A DNA stretch of 64,000 bases from Gammaproteobacteria bacterium (GTDB lineage: Bacteria > Pseudomonadota > Gammaproteobacteria > Steroidobacterales > Steroidobacteraceae). Shown here piece by piece: positions 1 through 63,435 of this stretch. Below the pieces are notes generated by a model, which worked only from the letters and a program-made list of their open reading frames with translations, was not told where the DNA came from and did no database searches. The translations under genes and the position numbers were made by a program. Position 1 is the first letter of the stretch, and each line of letters opens with the position of its first letter. The stretch is taken from NCBI GenBank assembly GCA_003164785.1, contig PLUE01000050.1, positions 1 through 64,000 on the forward strand, read 5' to 3'.

Positions 1-755
1 GGGATTATCAGGTAGCCGCCGGGGCGGTGAAATTCGTGGTCGCGGGTGGTGGACGGCTCGGCGCCGAACACTAATGTCCACTCTTGGTAAAGAAAGCTAA
101 CCAGCATATCGCGCCGCTGATCGTGGCTTTTGTGTTGGCGTGATGCCTCAAGGCCAAGTTGGGAGCCATGCGCCTGTAATCGAAGGACTGTTGTGTAGGT
201 CCAAAGTCTCTGCAACATCAATTTTTGATTGCCGAGCATGGGATCTTCGGATTCCGCGACAAGTCTCTGCATTTGTCTTTCGTAGCTAGTCTCCGGAGCG
301 CCGGCATTTTCTGGATTCAGTCTCACCCACTTGGACAAGTGATCGCCGACGCTGGCAAGTCTTTTGGCGCCCTCTCCTTGTTGAAGCCTCGAAAGCGCCT
401 TGAGCAGCTCAGCTGCCGCGCGCTCTACGCGATTCAATTTTTTTTTAATTGTCGCGTGGCTTTCGAGCGCGGCGTTTCGATCGTACAACCACAAGAAATG
501 AGCTGCCTGCGAAATAAAGATGTTGATGCCCGCCTCGCCATTCTTCAGTCGCTGGTGATCAAAGCTTTCTCTGATTTCGGAGCGTTGCGCCGCCGTCCAT
601 GGATTCACGCGGATATTTAGAGGTTTGGGAATGAATGGGTTCGGCGTTGTAAGAGGCGGACGAGAACGCGGGAGCGGTTTCTGTCGGGGAAGCGTGACAG
701 CGTTGGACCGTTCTTTTTTTGACTTGGCCGTGCCCTCAGTGGGCCGGAGCGGCAT
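1..755 (-). CDS. Unknown protein, coupled to the serine recombinase; partial
   Basis: The frame is open for 251 codons from an ATG at 755 and runs off the left edge of the window, so the C-terminus is missing. Its ATG overlaps the TAA stop of the upstream recombinase (TAATG), which indicates translational coupling and shared transcription. The first 50 or so residues are rich in Pro, Arg and Lys and look disordered. From about residue 55 the protein becomes mostly helical and charged, with a coiled-coil-like stretch near residues 103-130 (KKKLNRVERAAAELL). I recognise no domain. Its position suggests a recombinase partner or a cargo protein of the same element, but that is inference from context only. 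Confidence 0.6.
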   Translation of the reverse strand, partial: MPLRPTEGTAKSKKERSNAVTLPRQKPLPRSRPPLTTPNPFIPKPLNIRVNPWTAAQRSEIRESFDHQRLKNGEAGINIFISQAAHFLWLYDRNAALESHATIKKKLNRVERAAAELLKALSRLQQGEGAKRLASVGDHLSKWVRLNPENAGAPETSYERQMQRLVAESEDPMLGNQKLMLQRLWTYTTVLRLQAHGSQLGLEASRQHKSHDQRRDMLVSFLYQEWTLVFGAEPSTTRDHEFHRPGGYLII

Positions 756-1441
756 TATCGCAATCCGAGGCGCTTTGCTGCGATCAGAAGCGACGGCGCG
801 TGCCAGCGGCCGCCACCAGTCGATGCAATGCCGCGATCGTTGAGCAGATCGCAGGCCGCCCGAAGCGATGCGCCGTTCTTCAGTGCAAATTCAATGTTGG
901 GCCGGATCTCTTCGAGCTTCGCGAGCGATGCGGCCTTATTGGCTTCTCCGCCTTTCGCGGCAATCTCCTTCGTTTCGGCTTCGGTGCGGGCATCCATGCC
1001 AAGCTTGATTCCGCGAGCTTTCGCGGCGGCCAGTCCCGCCTTGGTGCGAGCCGCGATCATGCCCCGCTCCTTTTCGGCCAGCGCGGCGTACAGGTGCAAC
1101 ACAAAGGGGTCTGATTGCCGGCCCAGGTCGCACACCACGAATTCGACGCGCTGGCTCATCAAGCCGCTAATGAAGTGCACATCGCGCGAGAGCCGGTCGA
1201 GTTTCGCGACCAGCACCGGGACCTTGGCCTTTCGGGCAGCCTTCAACGCCGCAGCGAGCTTTGGGCGCCGCTCAAGGGCGTCAGAGCCCGATCCCGTCTC
1301 GATCTCCTCGTAGACCTGGCTGACGTCGAGGCCTTCGGCTTGGGCGAAGCGGGCGATCGCTGCGCGCTGGGCTTCGAGGCCGAGACCCGAGCGGCCCTGT
1401 GCTTTGGTGCTTACCCTCACATATCCCACAGCGGTCGTCAT
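755..1441 (-). CDS. Serine recombinase (resolvase/invertase family)
   Basis: A 228-residue protein with the N-terminal catalytic domain of resolvases and invertases: it opens with [11 protein letters not shown], where the Ser after RV is the nucleophile, followed by the LDRLSRD segment that carries active-site arginines. The C-terminal third ([18 protein letters not shown]) resembles the recombinase-associated helix-turn-helix. The frame is open further upstream, but the ATG at 1441 has AAGGGA eight bases before it and begins exactly where homologues begin. The protein should cut and rejoin DNA at short sites through a covalent serine intermediate. The size fits the small resolvase class, not large serine integrases. 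The stop overlaps the start of the next gene. Confidence 0.9.
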
Positions 1442-1744
1442 TTTGAGCATCCCTTTTTGGTACGGGACCAACTTTAGGGCATATCTGACCCTTTGTAAAG
1501 ACTCCTTGACGGACGTCATGCTATATTAACGTAACGATCTGCACACCGAAATAGGCCGGTGGTGATCCGGTGCTACCGCTTTCGAGCGCGCCTCACGTGC
1601 CCTCAGCAGAACGCCAATCAAAAACCTAGCACTCATGACAGTTAACTCCGTTTCCGCAATAGCGGCGGTCGCGACCGCTAGTACCGCGTGACAAAAAGTC
1701 GTAGCCCGGCACAGCTGCCAAGGGCTCCGCTCCGCTGTAGCGAA

Positions 1745-3154
1745 TCATCCATCGCCGAGCACGGCTTTTGGTCCTGAGGAATCGACAGAGTCGGCGCTCG
1801 ACGACTTCGCCTGCTCCAAACCAAAAATTTCTAGAACTGAAATGGTTGCTGACGTCAGAGTCGTAAAAAATGCGACATACAGAAATAACGTCGAGGCCGC
1901 CGCTCCCAACCGAACCCATAACTCGACCAGACCAACGTAGGCGATTTGATCTTGGGCTTCTTTGAATAAGACGGGCAGCGTACTTTCGACTTTTGAAATT
2001 TTGGGACAATATGTTTCGAATGCCGCGAGCAACGAACTTGCTTCATCGACTTTAGTTTTGTCAGGCATCTGCCCTGGCTTTTCAAAGCGAATCTGATCAG
2101 AGAGATAGCTTTGGGAGGCTGCACACTCGCTATCTGTCTCAGGGAGTTGAAGGGTTCCATCAGAAAACACGCCATGCTGAGAGTCATCATCTGAATCACC
2201 GTATTTAAGCAACGGAGGAACAGGAGATCCTGGTTTATATACAGACACGTATGGGGCGCGCGTCGCAAGTTCGAGCTCGTGAATGCTCCTTTGAATTTGT
2301 CGAAAGGACCTCAACCACCGCTCGTTGGAAGTCAGGAGTGAATCAAACCGAATCGGGACCTCAGAAGGATCGATGCTCCTTAATTTGTTTGTAAGTTCCG
2401 AAGTCAGATCAGATAGGGTGCTTCGCGCCGCCTCAAGCTTCACCACCGAATCGAGTTCATTGATACGAATCGCACGAGTAGTGAAAACCACAAGAAGTAA
2501 AGCAATAACAATTGCCGAGATAAGAGCGAGGACATCCTTCGGCCTATCCATCAGGCGCCGCGCCCATCTTTGAGCGGCCGCCGTTCCCAAACGGTCGATT
2601 AATGCTCGACGTCCAAACTCGGCGTTATTCCCCAACGATCTTTCGATGGATGTCCTAACGGACTTGGGAAGTTTGCTATATGAGTTCTTTGCGTCTTCCG
2701 ATAGCTTTTCTTCAATACGCATACGCCACTTCGAACCACCGAACAAGCCGAATGCAAAATAGAAGGGCGCTCGGAGTGTTCCTAGAAAAGCAATATACGC
2801 GCCGGCAAGCATTTTTCGTCGAGCATGACTCCATTGGGCGGTTTGGTCTGACAGCTCTGCGTAGGACCAAACAACGTTCGCGACCGCCCTCGCAAGAAAG
2901 ACTTCGCCGACCAACTCGACCAAAACACCGGTTGCGAAAATCAACAGCACTCCGCTTGCCAATAGTAGCGAAACAGATACATCCTTCGAGCTGACTGTTT
3001 GAGACACGTCCGCCTTAAAATAGTCGAGCGTTGAAACCGCTGTGATTACGACGATTGTCCCGGCCGTTAGTCGTCTTCTGCCACCGCCGTCCAGAACGGG
3101 GACTCGCTCAAGCAAAGCCTCGAGTTTGGATGTCGACTTCTCCTTGTCCTCCAT
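1745..3154 (-). CDS. Orphan multi-pass membrane protein
   Basis: A 469-residue protein that I do not recognise. Hydrophobic segments lie near residues 30-46, 60-85, 118-140, 208-228 and 410-440. A soluble stretch of about 180 residues (230-410), rich in Ser, Leu and acidic residues, sits between the last two, giving one large loop or domain bracketed by membrane helices. The short N-terminus is charged (MEDKEKSTSKLEALLERV). It stands alone between the recombinase and the excisionase-like gene and its lower GC content differs from the neighbours, consistent with cargo on a mobile element. A membrane effector of a defence system would fit the topology, but nothing in the sequence shows that function. 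Confidence 0.7.
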   Translation of the reverse strand: MEDKEKSTSKLEALLERVPVLDGGGRRRLTAGTIVVITAVSTLDYFKADVSQTVSSKDVSVSLLLASGVLLIFATGVLVELVGEVFLARAVANVVWSYAELSDQTAQWSHARRKMLAGAYIAFLGTLRAPFYFAFGLFGGSKWRMRIEEKLSEDAKNSYSKLPKSVRTSIERSLGNNAEFGRRALIDRLGTAAAQRWARRLMDRPKDVLALISAIVIALLLVVFTTRAIRINELDSVVKLEAARSTLSDLTSELTNKLRSIDPSEVPIRFDSLLTSNERWLRSFRQIQRSIHELELATRAPYVSVYKPGSPVPPLLKYGDSDDDSQHGVFSDGTLQLPETDSECAASQSYLSDQIRFEKPGQMPDKTKVDEASSLLAAFETYCPKISKVESTLPVLFKEAQDQIAYVGLVELWVRLGAAASTLFLYVAFFTTLTSATISVLEIFGLEQAKSSSADSVDSSGPKAVLGDG

Positions 3155-5132: not shown

Positions 5133-5419
5133 TATGATGTCTGGACCTCATTGGTGGTGCGTTCTGCTATCAAGGCGTTCCGGCATTCATCCTCGAGCCG
5201 GTTGGCGTGGGCGATCAGGTCTGGGGCTTTGCGGGCGACGCCGAGGTAACGCAAGGCCGCTACGCATCCCTGAAAGTCGAGGCCGGCGCCCAGATCGGCG
5301 ATCGCTTCGCGTTCCCGCTCCTGCAGCTTGCGGAATTGGTCGATGCCGACGTTCCGAACGAAGCAGACGAGGGCGAGCTGGTGGGCTTCCTGCTGTCCTT
5401 CGATCTTGCGGCGGCTCAT
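5132..5419 (-). CDS. Hypothetical small protein of the operon
   Basis: A 95-residue protein (MSRRKIEGQQEAHQLALV) that appears all-helical, with two conserved-looking segments, FRKLQEREREAIADLG and FQGCVAALRYLGVARKAPDLIAHA. The ATG at 5419 overlaps the previous stop as ATGA, which fixes the start within a longer open frame, and its own stop overlaps the next start as TAATG. I recognise no family. Confidence 0.6.
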   Translation of the reverse strand: MSRRKIEGQQEAHQLALVCFVRNVGIDQFRKLQEREREAIADLGAGLDFQGCVAALRYLGVARKAPDLIAHANRLEDECRNALIAERTTNEVQTS

Positions 5420-50675: not shown

Positions 50676-50903
50676 ATGGTTGCGCTGAAAATCCGCAAGG
50701 TGGGTAATTCCCTTGGACTCGTGCTCCCGAAGGAAGTGATCAATCGCCTTCGAACTGGCGAGGGCGAGGACGTGTTCCTCATCGAGGGACCCAACAACAC
50801 CTATCGACTCACGCCCTTCGACCCGGTCTTCGAGCAGAAGATGGAGAAGGCGGAGGAGATCATGTCGCGCTACCGGAACACGCTTCACGTCCTGGCGAAA
50901 TGA
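50676..50903 (+). CDS. AbrB/MazE-type antitoxin
   Basis: A 75-residue swapped-hairpin AbrB DNA-binding protein (ALKIRKVGNSLGLVLPKEVI), followed by a C-terminal toxin-binding tail (FDPVFEQKMEKAEEIMSRYRNTL). It should repress the operon and neutralise the Doc toxin. Its stop overlaps the toxin start by four bases. Confidence 0.9.
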   Translation: MVALKIRKVGNSLGLVLPKEVINRLRTGEGEDVFLIEGPNNTYRLTPFDPVFEQKMEKAEEIMSRYRNTLHVLAK

Positions 50904-51286
50904 GCGAGCCGGTCTGGATCGACGAGGCGCTGGCTCTCGCGATCCATGACAGGCAGCTTGTCGAGCATGGTGGTGCAGCGGGCCTCCGTGACGAAGGCTT
51001 GCTCCATTCCGCACTAAATCGACCATTGAACCGGCTCGCTTACGCCAGCTCAGACATCATCGAATTCTCAATGCTGTACACGGCCGGCATTGTGAAAAAT
51101 CATCCGTTCGTCGATGGCAACAAGCGCACCGGGTTTGTTATGGGTGTGCTTTTCCTCGAGCTCAATGGCTACCGTTTCACGGCCAGTGAGGAGGCCGCGG
51201 CGCAGGCCATCATCGAACTCGCCGCCGGCACGATCGATGAAGAAGGCTTCTGCGCTTTCCTTCGCGCCAACGTGACCGAATTGTGA
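50900..51286 (+). CDS. doc: Doc-type toxin (Fic fold)
   Basis: A 128-residue death-on-curing toxin. The Fic/Doc catalytic motif is HPFVDGNKRTGFVMG, and the N-terminus IDEALALAIHDRQLVEHGGAAGLRDEGLLHSAL is typical of Doc. Doc phosphorylates elongation factor Tu and stops translation; the antitoxin gene lies directly upstream with an ATGA overlap. All key Fic-motif residues for Doc appear intact. Confidence 0.93.
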   Translation: MSEPVWIDEALALAIHDRQLVEHGGAAGLRDEGLLHSALNRPLNRLAYASSDIIEFSMLYTAGIVKNHPFVDGNKRTGFVMGVLFLELNGYRFTASEEAAAQAIIELAAGTIDEEGFCAFLRANVTEL

Positions 51287-52190: not shown

Positions 52191-55100
52191 TCAGACCGCC
52201 ACCGCCCAGTCCGCGCACAACAACTCCGCCTGCGCGAGCACGGTCTTGACCGCCTCCTGTTGCAAGTCCGGCGGGTAGCCGTATTTGTTCAGAATGCGTT
52301 TCACCATCACCTTGATCTTCGCCCGGGCGCTTTCGCGCAGCGTCCAGTCGATAGTCACACTCTTTTTGACCTGGGTGATCAATTCCGCCGCGATCAACCG
52401 GAGCTTGTCGTCGCCCATCGCGGTCACGGCAGATTCATTGGCGGCGAGGGCGTCGTAAAAGGCTTTCTCGTCATCGCTGAGCCCCATCGCCTTGCCGGCC
52501 TTCGTGGCTTTGTCGAGATCCTTGGCAAGCTTGATGAGCTCTTCGATCACCTGCATCGTCGAGATCGCGCGATTGTGGTACGCATTCAGGGTCTTCTTGA
52601 GTTTCTCGGAAAACACTTGGCTCTGTACGAGGTTGCGCTTTGCACGCTCCTTCAGTTCGTCCTTGAGCAGCTTCTCCAGTAGCTCGGCAGCGACGTTTTT
52701 GTGCTTGAGGCCGCGGACTTCGGCGAGGAACTGATCACTCAGGATACTGATGTCCGGCTTGGACAAGCCGGCGGCGGTGAACACGTCGATCACCTGCCCT
52801 TCGGTGGTGATGGCCTTGCTCACGAGCTGACGGATGGCGGCGTCCATCTGCTCCGGAGTCTTGCGGTTGATGCTGCTCTGCTTGTTCAGCGCGGCTTGCA
52901 GGGCTTGAAAGAAGGAGACGTCGTCGCGAATCTTGGTCGCCTCATCGCTGGACGCGCACAGGGCGAAGGCGCACGACAGCTCTCTGACCACCTGTACCCA
53001 GCGCTTCTTGCCGTCCTCCTGCTGGAGGATGTGCTCCTGACCGGCCGGGATGAGGCTGAGGCGTTCAGTGGGTTTGCCGGTGACCCATTTGTCCCAGTCG
53101 AAGCCATGCAGAAGATCGCAGGCGACGCCGTGTTTCTCCAGCATGACGGCGATGGCTTGCGGAATATCCAGGGTGGGATCGCCCTGGCCACCGCTTTCGG
53201 TGTACGTGATGAGCGCCTTCTTGAGCTGATCGGCGAGACCGAGATAGTCCACCACCAGACCGCCCGGCTTGTCGCGAAAGACACGGTTGACGCGGGCGAT
53301 GGCCTGCATGAGTCCGTGGCCCTGCATGGGCTTGTCCGCATACATGGTGTGCAGACAGGGCGCGTCGAAGCCGGTCAGCCACATGTCGCGCACGATGACG
53401 ATGCGGAACGGGTCTTTGGCATCCTTGAATCGGTTCGCCAGCTTGCGGCGCTTGTCCTTGCTGCGGATGTGCGGCTGCCAATCGGGGCCGTCGTCGGCGC
53501 TGCCGGTCATCACGACTTTCACCACGCACACCCTGCCCTTCTCGGATTCCGCGTCGTCGTCCTGGGCACTGGCCCAATCGGGACGCAGGGCGATGAGTGC
53601 CTTGTACAAGTCAACCGCAATGCGGCGGCTCATACAGACGATCATCGCCTTGCCGTTCATCGCCTCTACGCGTTTCTCGAAATGCGTCACCATGTCCGAC
53701 GCCACGAGCGCGATGCGTTTCGGATCACCCACCAACGCCTCGAGCGCAGCCCATTTCGTCTTGAGCTTCTCCTTCTTCGTCAGCTCCTCGCCTTCGGTGA
53801 TTTCCTCGAATTCCGCGTCCAGCTTCGGCAGTTCGGCGGCGTTGAGGCTCAACTTCGAGATGCGGCTCTCGTAATAAATCGGCACCGTGGCCTGGTCGGC
53901 GACGGCCCGCTGGATGTCGTAGATGGAAATATAATCGCCGAACACCGCCCGCGTGTTCGCATCCGTCTTTTCGATGGGGGTGCCGGTGAAGCCGATGAAC
54001 GACGCGTTCGGCAGGGCATCTCGCAGGTTGCTGGCGAAGCCGTAGGACATCTCGCCGGTCTTCTCGTTGACCTTGCCGCCAAACCCATACTGGCTGCGGT
54101 GCGCCTCATCCGCGATCACGACGATGTTCTGTCGCCCGCTCAACTGGGGCATTTCCTCGCCCTTTTCCGCAGTGAATTTGTGGATGGTCGTGAACACCAC
54201 GCCGCCGCTCGCCCGGTTCAGTAGCTCGCGCAAATGCTCGCGCCCGCCGGCCTGCACCGGCGTCTGGCCGAGGATTTCCGCGCAGCGCTGGAACTGGCCG
54301 AAAAGCTGGTCGTCGAGATCGTTGCGGTCGGTCAGCACCACGAGCGTGGGGTTTTTCATCGCCGGGTGTCGCACCACGCGCGCGGCGTAGAAAAGCATGG
54401 AGAAGCTCTTGCCACTCCCCTGCGTGTGCCAGACCACCCCCGCTCGTCGGTCGCCCGGCTTACCGCCGCGCATCCGCTCAGCCCAGTAGGCGCCCCCGTC
54501 ATCGCGCACCATGTTGCCGGTCTCAGCCGTGCCGCTGGCACGCACCGTCTCTTCCACCGCCGCATTCACCGCATGGAACTGATGGTACCCCGCGATGATC
54601 TTGTGCAAAGAATCCGAGTCCGGATCGTCCTCGAAGACGATGAAATGGTGCAGTAGGTCGAGGAAGCGCCGCCGCTCGAACACCCCGCGCACTAGGACTT
54701 CCAGCTCCAACACCGTCTTCGGCGCGTCGCCCTCGCGGTCGATCGTGCGCCACACCTTGAACCATTCCTGGTTCGCGGTCACCGACCCCACGCGCGCCTG
54801 CAAGCCGTCGCTCACCACCAGCACCGCGTTGTACTGCAGCAGCGAGGGTATCTCCGCCTTGTAGGTTTGAAGTTGCGCGTACGCGCTCCAGATCGTCGCG
54901 TCCTCATCCGCCGCATTCTTGAGTTCGATCAGCCCCAGCGGTAGGCCATTGAGGAACACCACGATGTCCGGCCGCCGGTTGTGCTGCCCCTCGATCACCG
55001 TGAATTGATTTACCGCCAGCCAATCGTTCGCTCGCACATCGCCGAAATCCACCAGCCGTACATGATCGCCCGCGATGCTGCCATCCGGCCGGGAATATTC

Positions 55101-55397
55101 GACCGGCACGCCATCGCGCAGCATCTGATGAAAGGCGCGGTTCGACTGGGTGAGCGAAGCCGTTCCCACTCGCAGCACTTTGCGCAAGGCCTCGTCGCGC
55201 GCCTCCTCGGGGACGGAGGCGTTTAGCCGCCCAATGGCTTCGCGTAAGCGTCCGACCAGTACCGCCTCGCCAAACGATTGGCGCTCGGCCGCCCGTTCTC
55301 CGGGAGCGATATGCGGTCCGTGGCCGATCGCATAGCCCAGCGCCTCAAACCAGGCCAGGGCTGCGTCTTCGACGATGGATTCATTAACTGCTGGCAT
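52191..55397 (-). CDS. hsdR: Type I restriction enzyme, R subunit
   Basis: A 1068-residue HsdR. The N-terminal nuclease domain has the PD-(D/E)xK core ([20 protein letters not shown], near residue 165). The translocase follows, with Walker [40 protein letters not shown] and [19 protein letters not shown]. The C-terminal HsdR/M-binding helices ([21 protein letters not shown] and beyond) are complete. It should cut unmodified DNA after ATP-driven translocation with the HsdM and HsdS products. It starts 65 bases after the fic gene, and not next to hsdS as usual. Confidence 0.96.
54875..55397. repeat. Direct repeat of the hsdR 5' end, partner of 56545-57080
   Basis: By eye, the roughly 520 bases of the hsdR start and the block 56545-57080 are alike at well over four bases in five, with the same orientation and co-linear coding. 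Divergence is abrupt after the AYAQLQT codons. The two copies flank the fic gene, so homologous recombination between them could delete fic and leave one hsdR. Confidence 0.8.
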
Positions 55398-55462
55398 TGC
55401 GGCTCTGCATTTTGATCGATTCCCACGCTATTACCCTGACTATTACCCCCATGTAAGGGTTA

Positions 55463-56524
55463 TTACCCCTTCCTGTACCAGACAGCGGCGGGTCCTCGTC
55501 CCCGGCATTCCACGGCACCGGCGGTTTGTTGTTCGCGCAGAACCCGCCGCACCATATCGCGGCTCACCCCCGGACTGGTTTGTTCGAGCTCACCAATCGT
55601 GAATCGCGTTCCGGATATAGATGTGAGTCGCGCAATGCCCGCCAACACCTGTTCACGCTTCGCGCCGCGCGGCGCCTTTATTTCTCCAACGCGCTCGGCA
55701 AACTCATGGTATGCGGACTTGAGAATTGACAGCACATAGTTGATGTACGGCCAAGGATCGTGCTTACCCTCGTGCCAGCCTTGCGAGCTCTGTTCCAGAG
55801 TTTCGTAATAGCGATCCTTGTTCTGCTCAACCCAGCGTTCCAAGCTAATGTACCGGCCCACTTCGTAACCCAACTGATAGCTCTGCAATAGCCACAGCAG
55901 GCGCGACACGCGGCGATTCCCATCGCGAAATGGGTGGATACACAAGAAATCCAAATTAAATGCAGCCAGGACCACCAACGCCGGAGCCCAACGCTCATCC
56001 AGGCAGGTTTGCCAATCTGCAATCAGCCGCGACATGGCGTCCGGCGTGTCGACAGCCTTCACGGTTCGAAAGCGGACTCGTTCGCCGCCGTCGGCATATC
56101 GTTCGATGATGTCACCGTCACGTTCCTTGTACTTGCCGGCATCCCATATCTGCCCACGCGCCGTCGCATGCAATTGTTTGATGGTGTCCTCGGTGAACGG
56201 AATCCCTGCCGCATCCCGATGAATCCACGTCAGGGCATCGCGATAGCCACGCACTTCCTCTTCATCTCGGTCCCGGAACAGCGGACGAGGTGACGCCAGC
56301 AAATCACGGACGCGCGATGGTTCAACCGCCACCCCCTCGATTCGATTCGACGACACCGAACTTTCGATCAATGCGTGCTCGCGCAACGTTTTCAGTCGCT
56401 GCGGTGACTGGCGCGTGTACAGCTCCTGCTTTCCGCGATACTCGCCAAGGTCAGATAAGTACCAGGCTGTTGTGGCTGGAATCTGAAATTGCGATGAGGC
56501 AAATAGACGAAGGGTGCGCATCAT
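55463..56524 (-). CDS. Fic-domain protein inserted in the restriction operon
   Basis: A 353-residue Fic protein. The inhibitory motif SSVSSNRIEG (S-x-x-x-E-G) lies N-terminal, making it class II. The catalytic motif is HPFRDGNRRVSRLL. A winged-helix tail (FTIGELEQTSPGVSRDMVRRVLREQ) follows. Such proteins transfer AMP to target proteins unless the helix blocks the site. The ATG at 56524 lies one base after the stop of the truncated hsdR copy; a longer in-frame start would overlap that copy. Fic genes inside type I loci are known, but the flanking hsdR duplication is unusual. Confidence 0.93.
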   Translation of the reverse strand: MMRTLRLFASSQFQIPATTAWYLSDLGEYRGKQELYTRQSPQRLKTLREHALIESSVSSNRIEGVAVEPSRVRDLLASPRPLFRDRDEEEVRGYRDALTWIHRDAAGIPFTEDTIKQLHATARGQIWDAGKYKERDGDIIERYADGGERVRFRTVKAVDTPDAMSRLIADWQTCLDERWAPALVVLAAFNLDFLCIHPFRDGNRRVSRLLWLLQSYQLGYEVGRYISLERWVEQNKDRYYETLEQSSQGWHEGKHDPWPYINYVLSILKSAYHEFAERVGEIKAPRGAKREQVLAGIARLTSISGTRFTIGELEQTSPGVSRDMVRRVLREQQTAGAVECRGRGPAAVWYRKG

Positions 56525-56525
56525 T

Positions 56526-57080
56526 TCATCCCGGCATGCCGTGCCGGGCGGTTTGGAGCTGCGCGTAGGCGCTCCAGATCGTCGCGTCCTCATCCGCCGC
56601 GTTCTTGAGTTCGATCAGACCCACGGGCAACTCATTGAGAGACACCACGATGTCCGGGCGCCGGTTGGCCTGCCCCTCGATCACCGTGAACTGGTTCACC
56701 GCCACCCAATCGTTGGCTCTGACCTCGCCAAAATCCACGAGCCGCACGTGATCGCCCGCGATGCTGCCATCGGGCCGGGAATATTCGACCGGCACGCCAT
56801 CGCGCAGCATCCGGTGAAAGGCGCAGTTCGTCTGCGTGAGCGAAGGCGTCCCCACCCTCAGCACTTTTCGCAATGGCTCCTCCCGCGCCTCCTCGGGGAT
56901 GGAAGCATTTAACGGCCGTATGGCCTCGCGCAAGCGGCCCACCAGCACCACCTCGCCAAACAATTCCCGCTCCGCGGCCGGCTCACCGGGCGCGAGATGA
57001 GGCCCGTGCCCGACCGCAAAACCAAGCTCCTCAAACCATTCAAGGGCAGCGACTTCGACGACGGATTCGTTAAGGCTCAT
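56526..57080 (-). pseudogene. Truncated extra copy of the hsdR 5' end (copy 2)
   Basis: A 184-residue frame almost identical in layout to residues 1-180 of intact HsdR (MSLNESVVEVAALEWFEELG, PRLN-type spacing, [41 protein letters not shown]). It then ends in seven unrelated residues and a stop where the fic gene begins. It includes the PD-(D/E)xK strand with Asp and ELK, so it could fold as an isolated nuclease domain, but without motor or docking regions it is more likely a remnant. The DNA is very similar to 54875-55397. Confidence 0.85.
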
Positions 57081-57193
57081 GAGCGTAGGTGGTTTGCGTC
57101 TACAGTGGAGAGAGGAGTCATTGCAGCCGTGTTTGCCACTCTGTTCCGTCAGCTCTTCTTCGGTGACAGCGCAGGACGGTGGACGGATGCGAT

Positions 57194-57823
57194 TTAAGCT
57201 GCCCGATCTTCAGCAAGTTTTCCAAACTCACGCGGATCTCCTATCAGGACTATCTTCGGCTCCTTCGCGATCCTGGACACAAAGCGGTCGCTCTGCACAC
57301 GCTTTTCATTAAATACCGCCTTGGTCATCACCACCGGGTTCACTTCGCGACCCAGGCGAGTTGGGCCGGCGTGGCAAGCCCCGACCACGTCTGCAAACAG
57401 CACGGATCCGACGACGAGCAGATCGACGTCGCTGTTCGCACGCTCCTTGCCCTGCGCGACCGAACCAAAGATCAGTGCTAGCGCAATCTTGCTTTGCAAT
57501 GGTGCCAGCAAATCTCGCAGCACATCTGCCAAACCGGCGGTCTTGCGAAAAATCCCGGCCAACTCTTCATAAATCGGGCATTCACGATTTGCCTGATAGC
57601 GCACCTGATTACCCGCCGTAGTACGGAGCAGCAGTCCGGCGTCCAACAGCAACTTCAACTCACGATGTAACGAACCTGCTGGCACCCCGGTGAGTCGGGC
57701 GATTTCACGCACATAGAAGGTTTCGTCGGGGCGCAGAAGCAGCAGACCAAGAATCTGCCGACGATAGGCACCGAACAGAATTTCCACCAATTGCGGATGC
57801 GGGGTCGAATTATGTGATCTCAT
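57194..57823 (-). CDS. Winged-helix nucleotidyltransferase
   Basis: A 209-residue protein. The N-terminal winged helix (ILFGAYRRQILGLLLLRPDETFYVREIARLTGVPAGSLHRELKLLLDAGLL) is followed by a MNT-type nucleotidyltransferase core FGSVAQGKERANSDVDLLVVG, with the GS and DxD catalytic elements. Related enzymes modify tRNA or proteins as toxins or act as antitoxins; no HEPN partner is adjacent. It lies between two hsdR 5' remnants. Paired TTGAGAACAA sites directly before the start suggest autoregulation through its own winged helix. Confidence 0.85.
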   Translation of the reverse strand: MRSHNSTPHPQLVEILFGAYRRQILGLLLLRPDETFYVREIARLTGVPAGSLHRELKLLLDAGLLLRTTAGNQVRYQANRECPIYEELAGIFRKTAGLADVLRDLLAPLQSKIALALIFGSVAQGKERANSDVDLLVVGSVLFADVVGACHAGPTRLGREVNPVVMTKAVFNEKRVQSDRFVSRIAKEPKIVLIGDPREFGKLAEDRAA

Positions 57824-57824
57824 A

Positions 57825-57855
57825 TTGAGAACAAATGTAGCTTATTTGAGAACAA
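57825..57855. promoter_or_regulatory. Paired operator-like repeats before the nucleotidyltransferase gene
   Basis: TTGAGAACAA occurs at 57825-57834 and 57846-57855, 21 bases apart (two helical turns), directly upstream of and touching the start codon region of the winged-helix gene at 57823. Direct repeats on one DNA face fit a repressor that binds as two side-by-side units; the gene's own winged helix is the obvious candidate. Confidence 0.65.
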
Positions 57856-57871
57856 GATTGCAAGGCCTTGT

Positions 57872-57965
57872 CTGGCGCGAGATGCGGCCCTTGGCCGACC
57901 GCGTCGGTCCAGTTGCCCGAACCATTCGGGGGGGCGTCTTCGAGACTGGATTCGTAGACGCTCAT
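57872..57965 (-). pseudogene. Frameshifted remnant of a third hsdR 5' end (copy 3)
   Basis: From an ATG at 57965 overlapping the DUF262 stop (ATGA), the sequence begins MSVYESSLEDA and, one frame over, contains GAATGGTTCGGGCA (EWFGQ) and then GQGPHLAP. These match MSLNESVVEVAALEWFEELG and GHGPHLAPG of copy 2. Similarity stops at GCGCCAG (57872), just before the nucleotidyltransferase promoter. It probably marks the original hsdR start, directly coupled to the DUF262 gene. Confidence 0.75.
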
Positions 57966-59734
57966 GGTTGCTTTAGCGACTCAAATCCCTTCCGTATGAT
58001 CGCCGCCATCAATTTGCGCCGTTCGATCAAAAATACGTCGTAGGCCATCGATTGCCACCCGCCTGGCAAAGCGTGATGATCGAGCATACATTTCCACTCA
58101 TCGGCCGAGAAACGGCGCTGAATCTCGGGCACATATAGGGCGGGCGAATCGTCGCTAATGTCGATGTTGTCTGGCCATTCCAGCAGCGCAAAATTGCCCA
58201 CCTGATTGATGCGCTTCAAGTCATCGATACCCTGGCGCTCTAGCCAAGCACGAGGAAATAAATGATGCCTCTCCAACGCCTTCTTCTTAGTTTTGATCGA
58301 AGGATCGAGAAGATCCGCAACCTTCTTGTGTGAGAACAGCACCGGAGCACCCAGACGATTTTGGGCAGCTGTATACGCAAAGAGCTCCGGGTTACGTGCC
58401 GATGAACTGTCTAAATTAGAAGGCAGCGTGACTGTCCAATAATCATTTGTGAGTTCATTGTCCATGATGGTCTGGAGGGTCGCAACGAATCCCACGGCGT
58501 CCTTCACCTCTTTGAGGCGGTTCAAATCGCCATCCATCACGGTCTCGGGTGAATTGGTGTAGCGCCCGGTCAGGCTCGCTGCGAAGAACCAGCGTCCAAT
58601 CAGTCGTTGAAGCTGATGTTCGATCAAGTCGAAACGCTTTCGGCCGACAAGGTAGAACGCATAGGCGTAGAGCATCGCGTTCTGCGACGAAATCATATCT
58701 CCGCTGCGGAAACCGGCGCCTATCAGGCAGGAAAGAAACTGGTGCCAGTGAGTCAGGTTCAGCACTTCGTCCTGAGCCGCCCGCAGTGCACCGAACTGTT
58801 GGTCCCGGCGTTCGGGCGAATACAGGCCCGTATCCATGTCCTTACCGCGCAGGACTTGGTATACACTCTTGAGGCGTCCCCTCTGAAAACCATAGGCGAC
58901 AGCCACTCGCAGAAGCTGGTCGGGATCCGGCTGAATGAAGTGATTGAACGGGGATGGCGGGCTACCCGGCGAAGGGGCCTGCCGCGACTGACGGCAAAAC
59001 GTTTCAAGCGCCATCCGGCCATCGTCCCAGAAAACGGACATCAAGGTAAGGATGAAATCCGCCTGATTCAGGCGAACTCCCTCGCTGTTGATGCGGACGA
59101 AGATATCCGCGACTTGCTCTTCGTCGACTGAAGAGGCGATCTCCAACGCGGTGAATGGATACTTTTGAAGATCGATTAGCCTGTCGACATTGAAGGCGAT
59201 TGCCTCCTCATCATCAGAGGTCAAGGGATCCTTCACTCCAAGCTTGGCGATGAAGTCATTGACGAGTTTGCGACTGGAACTCCGCGATGCCCAAAGCTGT
59301 GAAATATTGGGAATCCATTCCGGATCGCGCCGGATTGCGGCATCGGCCACCTCGAACTTCCCATCGCGCGGACGGAAGGCGACGTCGATCTGCCGCTCTT
59401 TATAGTCTTCATCTAGTACTTTACGGCCACGGAATACAGCAAAGAGCGAAGTCAATCGTTGCTGCCCGTCCACGATCAGCAGACGTGCGATGACGTGCTG
59501 TTTGCTCCCGACGCCGATCTGCTTCGTGGCGCCTCCTGTCACGTTTTCCCAGAAGGGGAAATAGCCGACTGGAAAGCCGCGATACATGGAGTCGAACAGG
59601 TCGCGCACTTTGGCGTTGGACCAGACAAATGGCCGCTGGATGTCGGGCAACGCGATATCGCCAATGTCGATGTAGTGAAGCAACCCATTGAGGTCATAAT
59701 CCACTTTTTTGAAACAGGTATTTAACTCGCTCAT
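57962..59734 (-). CDS. DUF262/HNH nuclease (GmrSD-like) in the restriction operon
   Basis: A 590-residue protein. The N-terminal DUF262 domain has the signature VDGQQRLTSLF (about residue 90) and IPDIQRPFVWSN-type lead-in (here ALPDIQRPFVWS). The C-terminal DUF1524-like HNH domain has ALERHHLFPRAWLER and NQVGNFALLEWPDNIDISD. GmrSD/BrxU-type proteins with this pair cut DNA carrying modified bases. It starts inside the hsdS stop (ATGA), so it is an integral part of the type I operon and could widen it to modified phage DNA. Confidence 0.93.
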   Translation of the reverse strand: MSELNTCFKKVDYDLNGLLHYIDIGDIALPDIQRPFVWSNAKVRDLFDSMYRGFPVGYFPFWENVTGGATKQIGVGSKQHVIARLLIVDGQQRLTSLFAVFRGRKVLDEDYKERQIDVAFRPRDGKFEVADAAIRRDPEWIPNISQLWASRSSSRKLVNDFIAKLGVKDPLTSDDEEAIAFNVDRLIDLQKYPFTALEIASSVDEEQVADIFVRINSEGVRLNQADFILTLMSVFWDDGRMALETFCRQSRQAPSPGSPPSPFNHFIQPDPDQLLRVAVAYGFQRGRLKSVYQVLRGKDMDTGLYSPERRDQQFGALRAAQDEVLNLTHWHQFLSCLIGAGFRSGDMISSQNAMLYAYAFYLVGRKRFDLIEHQLQRLIGRWFFAASLTGRYTNSPETVMDGDLNRLKEVKDAVGFVATLQTIMDNELTNDYWTVTLPSNLDSSSARNPELFAYTAAQNRLGAPVLFSHKKVADLLDPSIKTKKKALERHHLFPRAWLERQGIDDLKRINQVGNFALLEWPDNIDISDDSPALYVPEIQRRFSADEWKCMLDHHALPGGWQSMAYDVFLIERRKLMAAIIRKGFESLKQP

Positions 59735-60960
59735 AAAATAGATTCCATCTGCCTGGTCATGTCTGCAATGCTCAGTTCGCCGCTCAGCAGCTTCGGCAAC
59801 AACGTGTCGCGCAAAGTGGCGAGGATCCGGGATTCGGAAGAGTTAGCCTTTATCTTCGCCATGAGTGGAGCGGTTATTTCCTCGAAGCGATGTGCGATCT
59901 CGGGCGTTGGGACCGCGAGCCAAAATGAGTTGAAACACTCGGACGGGACACGTTGACGCCCGCTGGTGCCGGTCATGTTGTGAATCGCGTGGGAACGCAA
60001 GGAGTCGGAGCGAGCGAGGAGATAGCCAAAGTGCAAGGGCAGCGGTGGCTTTGGCGCGAGAACGATGTATTCCGTGGAGCCCCAACCGACTTGTTTATTC
60101 TCTAGAAAATCGACGTAGCCGGTCTTGCCGTTTTCCAAACAGGGCGTAATGCGGGCCATCAGCGTGTCGCCATTCTGAAATTTTGTGCCAGAGCCGAACT
60201 TGCGGTCGACTACATCCTCGGCAGAATGGCCCTGCGTCGGCAAATTTTTCATATCCAGGTAAGGAGCGACAGTTCCAACCTTCAACGTACGTCGCGGATT
60301 TACTTCAATGGCGTCGGGCAACCGTTGCGCCTGCCATCCGTGCGGAATAGGACCGAGGCTGGAATCTTGGAATGCGTCAGGGAAGAGAGCGGCGGTCGCT
60401 ACATCCAAAGCTGCGGGCGATTGGCCATCAAGTTTGGCGCGAACAGGGTCAAAATCCACGAACCAACTCTGGAACAGCGCACGAGCCATGGCCTCCAGGG
60501 TCGCGTTCATCCGTCGATTTAGCTCGATCTTGTCGTCCAGTGTCCCAAGCACCGCCGCAATGGCCCTTTGCGCGGCGAGGGGCGGCAGCAAAACGGGGAT
60601 CCGGTGGAGGTCATTCCGATTGACGCCGGGCACGCTACTTTTGTCACTGCACGAGCGAAAATCGATGGTTCGCAAAAGATACGATGCGAAGAGTGGGTCA
60701 TTGCCGTGAAAGTCTTTGACCCAGAGTGTTGTATTTAGCGGCCAGTAATCTTCCGTGATGAGAAACACTTGCCCTATGGTGCCGTATCGTCCGGTCACAA
60801 CGCCGGGGCCTTTGACGCCGACTTCGGAGTGGTAGTCGCTTACGCCAGAAGACGACACGATTGGCACCTTGCCCGGTTTGCGGTTTTGCGAAGGCAAATC
60901 GAAACCACGTTGGAGTGTGATTACTTCACCGAGCGGAACTTCGGCCCACTCACTCGCCAT
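59731..60960 (-). CDS. hsdS: Type I restriction enzyme, specificity subunit
   Basis: A 409-residue HsdS with two target-recognition domains separated by conserved helices: TRD1 ([20 protein letters not shown], then [40 protein letters not shown]) and TRD2 ([21 protein letters not shown], then [21 protein letters not shown]). It sets the DNA sequence methylated and cut by the complex. It overlaps hsdM by 11 bases. The bipartite target cannot be predicted from sequence alone. Confidence 0.95.
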
Positions 60961-62539
60961 AACCTAGCCCTTTGAGGTTTGCGCTAATAGCCTGCTCCAG
61001 TTTCGCGGACTCCGCGAACTGAGCGTGCAATTCCGCGACGAGCCTCTTCATCTTATCCTCGAACGGCTCCCCATCGTCCTCGACTTCCTCGGCTCCCACG
61101 TAGCGCCCCGGCGTGAGCACATAACCGTGAGCGGCGATTTCAGCCGTGGTGGCGGATTTGCAGAATCCGGCGATGTCTTCGTACGCCCCCGCCCGCGATT
61201 TTCCTCGCCAGTGGTGATAGGTAGTGACGATCTTCTGAACGTCGGCATCGATCAGCTCGCGGTGCACTCGGTCGATGAGCGTGCCGAGCTTGCGGGCATC
61301 GATGAACAGCGTCTGCTTGCGGCGGTCGCGGAAGCCGCGCTTGGCGTCGGCGCCTTTGCTCTTTGCGAGGAACCATAGGCAGACGGGTATCTGCGTGCTG
61401 TAGAACAGCTGACCGGGAAGCGCGACCATGCAGTCCACGAGGTCCGCCTCGATAATGGCGCGGCGGATGTCGCCTTCACCGGACTGGTTGGAGGACATGC
61501 TGCCGTTCGCCAGGACGAATCCGGCCATGCCATGGGGCGCAAGGTGGTGGATGAAGTGCTGGACCCAGGCGAAATTGGCGTTGCCCTTGGGCGGAACTCC
61601 GAACTGCCAGCGAACGTCGTCGTCCTTGCGAAACCAGTCGGAGTCGTTGAAGGGTGGGTTGGCGAGGACGTAGTCGGCGCGCAGGTCGGGATGCAGATCG
61701 CGGCGGAACGTATCGGCTTGTTCGGGGCCGAAGTCAGCCTCGATGCCGCGCAGGGCAAGATTCATCACGGCAAGGCGGCGGGTGGTGGCGTTGCTCTCCT
61801 GGCCGTAAATGCTGATGTCGCCCAATTTGCCGCCGTGGGATTCAACGAATTTCTCCGATTGCACGAACATGCCGCCGGAGCCGCAGGCCGGGTCGTAGAT
61901 GCGGCCCTTGTACGGCGCGAGCATTTCGACGAGGCAGCGCACGACGCACGACGGCGTGTAGAACTGGCCGCCGTTCTTGCCCTCGGCGCTGGCGAAGCGC
62001 GTGAGGAAATACTCGTAAACGCGGCCGAGCAAGTCAACGGAGCGGTGGGTCTTCTCGCCCTCGCTGGCGGCGGTAAGTTCGATGGTCGCGATGACGTCGA
62101 TGAGTTCGCCGAGGCGCTGTTTGTCGAGACCGGGCCGGGCGTAGTCTTTGGGGAGGACGCCTTTGAGGCGCGGGTTATCGCGCTCGAGGGCCACCATGGC
62201 GTCGTCCACGGTCTTGCCGATGGTGGGCTGCTTGGCACTAGCCTGGAGGTGGGACCAGCGCGCCTCGGCCGGCACCCAGAAGACGTTCTCGGCTTTGTAC
62301 TCGTCTGGGTCTTCGGCATTGGCCCCGGCATAGTCACCCTGGCCGGCGAGAAGCTTGGCGCGGTGTTCCTCGAAGGTATCGGAAATGTATTTGAGGAAGA
62401 TGAGGCCGAGCACGACGTGCTTGTACTCTGCCGCGTCCATGTTGTTGCGCAGCTTGTCGGCGGTCAGCCAGAGCTTGGCCTCGAAACCGATGGTGGCCGA
62501 GGACTGGGCGGCCGCGGTGTTGGATTTCGTACGAGCCAT
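60950..62539 (-). CDS. hsdM: Type I restriction enzyme, methyltransferase subunit
   Basis: A 529-residue adenine-N6 methyltransferase. The N-terminal HsdM helical domain ([36 protein letters not shown]) is followed by SAM motif I ([14 protein letters not shown]) and catalytic motif IV ([13 protein letters not shown]). The ATG at 62539 has GAGGGA seven bases upstream and fits the family start; the open frame upstream of it does not. First gene of the operon, transcribed leftward with hsdS, the DUF262 gene, hsdR and the ASCH gene. Confidence 0.96.
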
Positions 62540-62818
62540 GAAAGTCCCTCTATCTTTAACTTTTGATTGTAACAGCGTGCCGCATGATGAACCGTCGAAT
62601 GACGCACAGCGGATCACCGAATCTCCATGAAACTGGATCTCCACGAAATTGGAGGCGCTGGATGGATCGATTGACCTGCTGCGAGGCGAGGTCGAGTGGG
62701 CGGTTCACCTGCCACGGTCGATGAGGTTGGCGCCTGAACGTCGCGACAGCGAGCTTGGCTCTGCCGAAATCATTCGCATGCCAGCAGCAGATTGCCGCTG
62801 CGTCCTTCCCCGCCGGAC

Positions 62819-63094
62819 TTACGCCGCTTGCCGTAACGCGAGGGATATTTTCAGCCCTGCGCGCCCGGCGAGATCGAATAATGCATCCAGGCTAAATTTG
62901 TCGATTTTACCGCGCAACAGATCGTTCAGACGCGGTTGCGTCAACCCGAGCCGGTTGGCAGCACTCTTTTGCGACAGTTCCCAGGAATTGATTGTTTTTT
63001 GCAGCGCCCGCATCAATTGCGCCCGCGCCTTCATGCTGGCGGCATCGCTCTGAGAGTCCTCGATCGCATCCCATACGCTGGCAAATGTCTTCAT
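62819..63094 (-). CDS. HigA-type (XRE) antitoxin
   Basis: A 91-residue protein with an XRE helix-turn-helix: LMRALQKTINSWELSQKSAANRLGLTQPRLNDLLRGKIDKFSLDALFDLAGRAGL, typical of antitoxins paired with Gp49-like HigB toxins. The start overlaps the toxin stop as ATGA. It should bind the toxin and the operon promoter. Confidence 0.9.
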   Translation of the reverse strand: MKTFASVWDAIEDSQSDAASMKARAQLMRALQKTINSWELSQKSAANRLGLTQPRLNDLLRGKIDKFSLDALFDLAGRAGLKISLALRQAA

Positions 63095-63435
63095 GAATTC
63101 CTCTTGGTCAATACTGCTTGATACCGGTCCTTTGCCAATGCCAGATCCTTGCCTGCGGTCGCCCGTGTCTTCTTCTGGAACGCGTGCAGCACGTAGATTG
63201 CCTCCGGAAATTTGGCCACGTATATCAACCTGAATGCGCCGGCATCATCCCGCACTCGAATTTCGTGCACGCCAATACCGACTGTGGTCATCGGCTTCCA
63301 ATCGTCGGCCTGTTCACCGCGCTGTACCTTATCTAGCTGAAAACCTGCCTGGCGTCGGGCACCTCGCGGAAAGTCCCGCAAATCATCCAGCGAAGACCCC
63401 ACGAATGTTGCCGGCTTGGGGCCCGAATCTTTCAT
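63091..63435 (-). CDS. HigB/Gp49-like toxin (RelE superfamily)
   Basis: A 114-residue protein of the phage-derived Gp49-like type: FVGSSLDDLRDFPRGARRQAGFQLDKVQRGEQADDWKPM, VHEIRVRDDAGAFRLIYVAKFPEAIYVLHAFQKKTRAT. Family members are ribosome-dependent mRNA nucleases. Toxin first, antitoxin second, with a four-base overlap. It is not closely related to the HigB at 9666. Confidence 0.92.
   Translation of the reverse strand: MKDSGPKPATFVGSSLDDLRDFPRGARRQAGFQLDKVQRGEQADDWKPMTTVGIGVHEIRVRDDAGAFRLIYVAKFPEAIYVLHAFQKKTRATAGKDLALAKDRYQAVLTKRNS

Follow-up and report, generated by a model that had tools for sequence, protein, structure and literature searches.

Truncated hsdR 5′ ends in a type I restriction-modification operon as probable scars of serial cargo capture

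The 64,000-nt stretch analyzed here (positions 1 to 64,000 of contig PLUE01000050.1, assembly GCA_003164785.1, Steroidobacteraceae; hereafter the window) carries on its minus strand an hsd operon with hsdM, hsdS and hsdR genes that bear the domains characteristic of type I restriction-modification systems. In coding order, the operon comprises hsdM, hsdS, a DUF262/GmrSD_N gene, a short 5′ remnant of hsdR (copy 3), a nucleotidyltransferase gene, a longer hsdR remnant (copy 2), a Fic gene and the intact hsdR (copy 1). Below, hsdR 5′ ends are referred to as heads, and the genes lying between hsdS and the intact hsdR as cargo. The features, with coordinates counted from the first letter of the window, are the following:

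60950..62644, minus strand: hsdM (Pfam N6_Mtase, HsdM_N)
59731..60960, minus strand: hsdS (Pfam Methylase_S)
57962..59734, minus strand: DUF262/GmrSD_N gene, the first cargo after hsdS (Pfam GmrSD_N)
57874..57966, minus strand: hsdR head remnant copy 3, about 95 nt (alignment, shuffles, position weight matrix, frame)
57194..57823, minus strand: winged-helix nucleotidyltransferase cargo (Pfam Polbeta/HTH_20; PADLOC PDC-M05A, PDLC04368)
57118..57231, minus strand: truncated nucleotidyltransferase partner gene (comparison with locus L107, see below)
56526..57080, minus strand: hsdR head remnant copy 2 (177 homologous codons plus 7)
55463..56524, minus strand: Fic cargo adjoining the intact hsdR (Pfam Fic, PADLOC SoFic); the open reading frame (ORF) is 56593-55463, and 56524 is the probable start that we chose
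52191..55397, minus strand: intact hsdR, copy 1 (HSDR_N, SWI2_SNF2, T1RH-like_C; TIGR00348)

The original prediction, made from the letters of the window alone, had placed three hsdR 5′ ends in series with cargo between them, and this is confirmed by nucleotide alignment, shuffles and gene order. All three 5′ ends are homologous when aligned at the nucleotide level: the 57872-57965 stretch is homologous to hsdR, and the two larger copies are related at the DNA level. Copies 1 and 2 (55387-54864 and 57073-56550) are identical at 443 of 524 nt (84.5%) in a gap-free alignment, their longest identical run being 39 nt. The alignment of copy 3 with copy 2 has 72 identities in 89 aligned nt, with 8 further gap positions, and its score of 60 compares with a best score of 30 among 500 mononucleotide shuffles and of 31 among 456 other pieces of the window; the position weight matrix (PWM) score of copy 3 is 16.4. 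The sequence motifs proposed to be common to the copies hold less strictly. The expected type of opening is found in copy 2 (MSLNES), while copy 1 starts with MPAVNES and copy 3 with MSVYES; similarly, GHGPHLAPG is exact in copy 2 and reads GHGPHIAPG in copy 1 and GQGPHLAPD in copy 3.

The homology of copy 2 stops after 177 codons, within the HSDR_N domain, and its stop codon lies one base ahead of the Fic ATG. Copy 3 has small indels, yet its frame is open for 51 codons and stops 14 nt inside the nucleotidyltransferase ORF, and its ATG is overlapped by the DUF262 stop codon (ATGA; stop offset +3). When the 5.85-Mb assembly is searched with 186 head residues, copies 1 and 2 alone are found at E≤0.001, a limit that copy 3 does not reach. 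Between copies 1 and 2, dN is 0.076 and dS is 0.56 (dN/dS 0.136), which argues that copy 2 diverged while functional or still constrained; a dead duplicate is an unlikely origin for it. Recombination between the window repeats could possibly swap the content of the locus.

Such junctions recur in related genomes, as the original prediction had proposed to check. Genome contigs were scanned with the full HsdR, and the best 80 of 580 confirmed stretches, ranked by HsdR similarity, were combined with the window; these and the other contig stretches with HsdR relatives of the window are given L numbers. Among the 81 loci, 66 include the 5′ end of hsdR together with 1 kb or more of preceding sequence and could be tested (the other 15 are uncounted). 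In 18 of these 66, the window included, hsdR 5′ remnants lie upstream of the intact gene on the same strand, with cargo that varies from locus to locus. With hsdR nt 1-600 as queries, plus-strand upstream matches are obtained in 19 of the 66 loci (E≤1e-5); two of these, L036 and L069, are weak single-query matches and are left out of the 18, whereas L099 was added from a weight-matrix scan. The heads of L071, L104 and L064, which contain repeats, were not used as queries. According to the record titles, the 18 loci span Verrucomicrobiota, Pseudomonadota, Cyanobacteriota, Planctomycetota and Nitrospira, but most of them are metagenome-assembled genomes (MAGs) whose labels may be wrong. One label outside this count is doubtful in its own right: L033 is titled a Klebsiella pneumoniae MAG, and its head is 94% identical to the heads of L035 (a Chthoniobacter MAG) and L037. 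L085, with three heads and an hsdR that lacks a normal 5′ end, falls outside the 66, as do L004-L032 (up to about 3.5 kb), which are too short for ladders of heads, and L139 (Deinococcus aquaticus), which has too little upstream sequence.

Within the 66-locus set, the remnants are exclusively 5′ ends. Four other 600-nt hsdR segments (nt 601-3000) give no plus-strand upstream match in these loci, the single match beyond nt 600 being on the minus strand (L060), and no hsdR piece was found in the sequence downstream of hsdR in 54 loci. At a threshold of 8 bits, a 48-nt weight matrix finds 25 sites on the plus strand of the 494 kb scanned and none on the minus strand (one plus site being the doubtful L069); it contributed L099 and, in L066, an additional weak head. 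Chance or low complexity is ruled out by the shuffles, the strand control and the segment control. An assembly artefact was also considered and rejected as a general cause, given that heads are present on a complete plasmid of Deinococcus grandis ATCC 43672, in Synechococcus sp. 1G10 (two heads, in a record not labelled as a MAG) and in the one-contig L127 (a partial head); assembly error may still apply to any single MAG. The D. grandis head is 244 nt long and 90% like the plasmid's own hsdR, and its record labels the remnant as a hypothetical protein. A search of a phage collection returned three records, with 2-7% of the query covered.

The arrangement of cargo relative to the heads is most informative where the same cargo occurs in two contexts. 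Cargo is joined directly to the hsdR start, and the same joint is intact in some loci and elsewhere leads into a truncated head with more cargo behind it. In L037, a 540-codon cargo gene precedes an intact hsdR, whereas L067 has the same cargo gene, 199 nt of hsdR head, a RhuM gene and then hsdR. The two loci share 307 of 341 aligned nt (90.0%) across the end of the cargo gene and the head, and the match stops at hsdR nt 199. The L067 remnant resembles the head of L033 at 92.8% and that of L037 at 90.4%, compared with 80.7% for its own intact head. Likewise, the RhuM gene upstream of the second remnant of L034 has 90%, 93% and 87% DNA identity to the RhuM genes joined to intact hsdR in L042, L046 and L064, and similar pairs are seen in L059/L077, L085/L078 and L091/L109. 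For the window, the nucleotidyltransferase and its counterpart in L107 form such a pair with 66% identity over 431 nt; a comparable pair with L104 covers 129 nt only. These pairs support the proposal of the original prediction that cargo came in at the start of hsdR together with a new hsdR head. Entry at that point is further illustrated by L034 and L077, which share a block (1,731 of 1,934 nt identical) that begins exactly at the ATG of the remnant, while the 364 and 374 nt that precede it share at most 12 nt. The other proposal, successive duplications, fits less well and is weighed below.

The joints themselves fall into two kinds. In L074, the remnant and the intact head are 67% identical over nt 1-15 and 33% over nt 16-30, after which 75 of 76 nt (nt 30-105) are the same, as expected if the start of a donor had been joined by a crossover near nt 30; here one joint lies inside shared homology. 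The other kind, between unrelated sequences, is seen in the comparison of L067 with L037 and in the ends of hsdS found in spacers. Spacers following remnants match hsdS C-termini in 6 of 19 cases (L039, L056, L059, L066, L067 and L074), compared to 9 of 380 shuffled spacers, as would follow from a donor piece that started within its own hsdS. The L067 spacer matches the hsdS end of L035, where RhuM follows hsdS. In addition, the insert is flanked by direct repeats of the target, and uninterrupted targets occur in relatives that are other genomes, not sister strains. None of the 39 pairs of remnants that are followed by similar cargo shows an upstream match of at least 120 nt; these pairs are mostly RhuM and not independent, and L042 and L071 share about 23 nt upstream. 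Beyond the 39, six pairs have no upstream sequence and one matches only in the head. Cargo type is linked to the start of the head (P=0.02 for amino acids 1-20) and not to its later part (P=0.41 for amino acids 61-140), with 76 same-cargo pairs among 2,346. The left joints of the second L034 remnant, L042, L056, L067, L071, L077 and L085 lie near hsdR nt 198; others are at about nt 35-110 and at nt 531.

The length and reading frame of the heads are also distinctive. The heads range from about 35 to 540 nt, and 21 of 22 end no more than 225 nt from the ATG of a gene of about 3.2 kb, the exception being copy 2 of the window (540 nt). Up to the joint, 21 of 22 are open. In 15 of 22 remnants, the head frame stops no more than 20 nt from the start of the following gene, compared to 12 of 44 alternative frames (P about 0.001 under random frame choice; P=0.009 with one remnant per related group), and exact start-stop overlaps number 8 versus 5 (P 0.03). 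This test used 22 of 26 remnants, excluding three without a clear next start and the L085 remnant at 5315 (gap +15), which runs into Ns. Because head frames end at the next start more often than other frames do, short open heads may have been favoured as translational bridges.

Taken together, we consider that the three heads of the window are probably scars left by the serial capture of cargo in a type I operon of the form hsdM-hsdS-cargo-hsdR, and put the probability of this reading at roughly three in four. We infer the individual steps from their fit to homology-anchored, one-sided illegitimate insertion. The donor DNA would come from another type I locus, as a piece consisting of the end of hsdS or a spacer, cargo and the start of hsdR, and would pair with the resident hsdR. 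On one side, a homologous crossover would take place inside hsdR; on the other, illegitimate joining would occur in an early portion of the resident hsdR. The old head would then be stranded upstream, with the newcomer providing a fresh start, so that hsdR stays whole and the event can be repeated. A finished rung (head-cargo-hsdR) could subsequently spread by ordinary homologous recombination between heads. Short open heads ending at the next start would be favoured if they carry ribosomes over the joint and keep the operon translationally coupled.

A rival possibility is tandem duplication, in which the hsdR start was doubled within the locus, with genes inserted between the two copies afterwards. 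In a tree of 41 heads, copies 1 and 2 of the window group as sisters (100/95, with the bootstrap not settled), which means either that the donor allele was a near relative or that an old duplication has stayed under constraint. L034 and L074 each have stretches in which the remnant is 98-99% like the intact head, and approximately unbiased (AU) tests on 198 nt leave the sisterhood of remnant and intact head unrejected in four loci besides the window (p-AU 0.22 for L034, 0.42 for L077, 0.21 for L067, 0.053 for L056). However, on the branch of a dead duplicate dN should approach dS, unlike in the window pair; the L067 remnant is nearer to the heads of L033 and L037 than to its own intact head; the first 29 nt or so of the L074 remnant differ from an otherwise identical intact head; and the 66-locus set shows 5′ ends only. 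Duplication is, in our judgement, an unlikely origin of the ladder. On the question of whether donor and recipient were different alleles, the L067 identities and the window dN/dS speak for it, the window copies are nevertheless sisters, and the AU tests give no decision.

The heads might alternatively be acquired leader genes, each cargo arriving behind a head of its own that acts as a translational leader or regulatory peptide. The open heads and their frames, which reach the next gene start more often than the alternatives, would suit such a role, but the DNA continuous with a head is that of the upstream cargo (L037/L067, L039/L077, L034/L046) and head lengths vary widely, making this very unlikely. 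The clustering of left joints near nt 198 would in turn be expected of a site-specific integration system with the hsdR start as its attachment site, similar to integrons or tyrosine-recombinase islands. Yet joints also occur elsewhere in the head, several of the nt-198 cases share RhuM or AlbA_2 cargo and may represent one event, and a GCGGG microhomology between hsdR and hsdS ends is readable by us at some joints. No integrase domain is reported by Pfam among 32 cargo and neighbouring proteins (proteins were scanned, not whole flanks); with joints that vary, the locus fails to qualify as an integron-type cassette array with an integrase and a fixed attachment site, and we regard an explanation of this kind as barely credible.

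Besides the sisterhood of the window copies and the AU results, several observations weigh against serial capture. No hsdS match is found in 13 of the 19 spacers that follow remnants, and no same-strain locus with an empty site turned up. The linkage between cargo type and head start is modest, and some of its cargo families derive from mechanically called ORFs. The L042 head is closed by a stop codon; the frame test relies on cargo starts and homology ends that we chose, with kinship corrected for only roughly. Remnant decay, expressed as PWM score, does not rise steadily with distance from hsdR: among the ladders in which two remnants were scored, such a rise is seen in the window, L034 and L104, whereas L059, L066 and, slightly, L056 depart from it. 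Moreover, in a sample of more distant HsdR loci drawn from the class of the window, head remnants are present in just 2 of 15 testable loci. These are L124, with two heads, and L127, whose one head keeps codons 59-99 instead of the very start. The class sample also has pieces from other parts of the gene, namely a 3′ hsdR piece in L113 and mid-gene pieces in L129 and L130, so the 5′ asymmetry is claimed for the 66-locus set; L129-L132, picked for small head-like matches, and the excluded L117 are outside the 15. The mid-gene matches in L115 and L126 resemble dispersed repeats. Finally, 1 of 6 plasmid loci, drawn from 20 listed among 2,947 records, has a head.

Two loci of these additional samples have unusual architectures. 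L113:1625-13105 holds two type I systems in tandem, the first with a gutted hsdR of which a scrap of the head and about 74 end codons remain. L133:6558-12123, on a Pseudomonas plasmid, has a PDDEXK gene and hsdR beside a gene annotated TraX, and neither hsdM nor hsdS is in the (incomplete) gene table of that stretch.

PADLOC ties the window cargo genes to defence; for the nucleotidyltransferase, the match to PDLC04368 has an E-value of 8.8e-73. A homologue with 62% identity and its partner gene lie just upstream of the intact hsdR in L107, where the 144-amino-acid partner gene follows the nucleotidyltransferase and runs into hsdR. Of this partner, the window retains about 18 codons resembling the start of the L107 gene, followed by unrelated codons and a stop. 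Judged by its sequence, the window nucleotidyltransferase has lost most of its partner gene, a case of cargo decay. The DUF262/GmrSD_N gene has an 85% identical homologue in L074. The operon is flanked by two gene pairs, 50676-51286 on the plus strand and 62819-63435 on the minus strand, which we take to be AbrB-type plus Doc-type and HigA/HigB-type toxin-antitoxin modules from their appearance.

In the related loci, Pfam assigns cargo to RhuM, AlbA_2/HATPase, AAA_13, Fic, DUF3644, GmrSD, DUF3800, DCD domain and DUF4268, as well as to IrrE-like with DUF4411, AAA with DUF4435, and AAA with OLD-like TOPRIM; a ParA-like cargo gene is accompanied by a HEPN match below the curated cut-off. Seven scanned proteins have no Pfam match (L067 715-2337, the L107 partner, L056 4398-5156, L071 9264-10001 and three of L137). 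Many of these families are presumably linked to defence. L042 carries a full-length AAA_13 protein among its cargo; AAA_13 is also the family matched by PrrC/RloC proteins. Short perfect or near-perfect hairpins of differing sequence lie just before RhuM in L046, L042, L062, L034, L067 and L035; when the hairpin was folded in 11 loci, the z-scores were mixed. Palindromic REP-like inserts and a common insert of about 39 nt occur in hsdR heads, both intact (L071, L104) and remnant (L034, L085, L042, L043), and the L071 and L043 copies that were read keep the reading frame.

The presence of the same leftovers in several phyla suggests a successive gain of defence genes at the hsdR start in operons of this kind. 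If serial capture is true, the heads are a readable record of the defence genes formerly carried by a restriction operon, and the process would explain how Fic, RhuM and AAA_13 ATPases come to lie between hsdS and hsdR. The 5′ heads would then serve as a simple signature for unrecognised defence cargo, and the entry of accessory genes into restriction loci would become testable through before/after pairs. More tentatively, with the odds somewhat against it, the hsdR start may be a general integrase-free docking site for defence genes, with heads kept as translational adaptors, such that the ladder would be both a fossil record and a working part that allows cargo to be gained, lost or swapped.

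Displaced pieces gathered at a hot spot are familiar from other systems. In Rhs/CDI orphan toxin-tip arrays, displaced 3′ gene regions are strung along a recombination hot spot, whereas the hsdR ladder is made of 5′ heads. The nearest process described, in the passages of PMC5361080 that deal with it and that also name Rhs, is the growth of orphan immunity arrays of type VI secretion in Vibrio cholerae, in which successive modules enter at one locus and push older pieces along, and which are explained there by homology-facilitated illegitimate recombination. Those arrays consist of immunity genes at the 3′ ends of effector loci; the hsdR ladder consists of 5′ heads with whole genes between them and an intact core gene. 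Insertion with long target duplication, which citing papers attribute to Nobusato et al. 2000, similarly involves restriction-modification genes and long direct repeats of the target. In that case, from Helicobacter, the restriction-modification genes are the insert, whereas in the window the restriction gene is the target, cargo is inserted and the events are stacked. Truncated hsdR genes of Staphylococcus epidermidis belong to non-functional systems according to the relevant part of PMC6918075. In the open-licence literature, judged by titles and the beginnings of abstracts, we found no description of hsdR heads in series. Accessory genes embedded in type I operons are already known, the classic being the abortive-infection gene prrC in the type IC hsd operon of EcoprrI (PMC3874165, PMC12707154); the EcoprrI passages of these two papers mention no hsdR head remnants, the feature that sets the window and its relatives apart from that otherwise similar arrangement.

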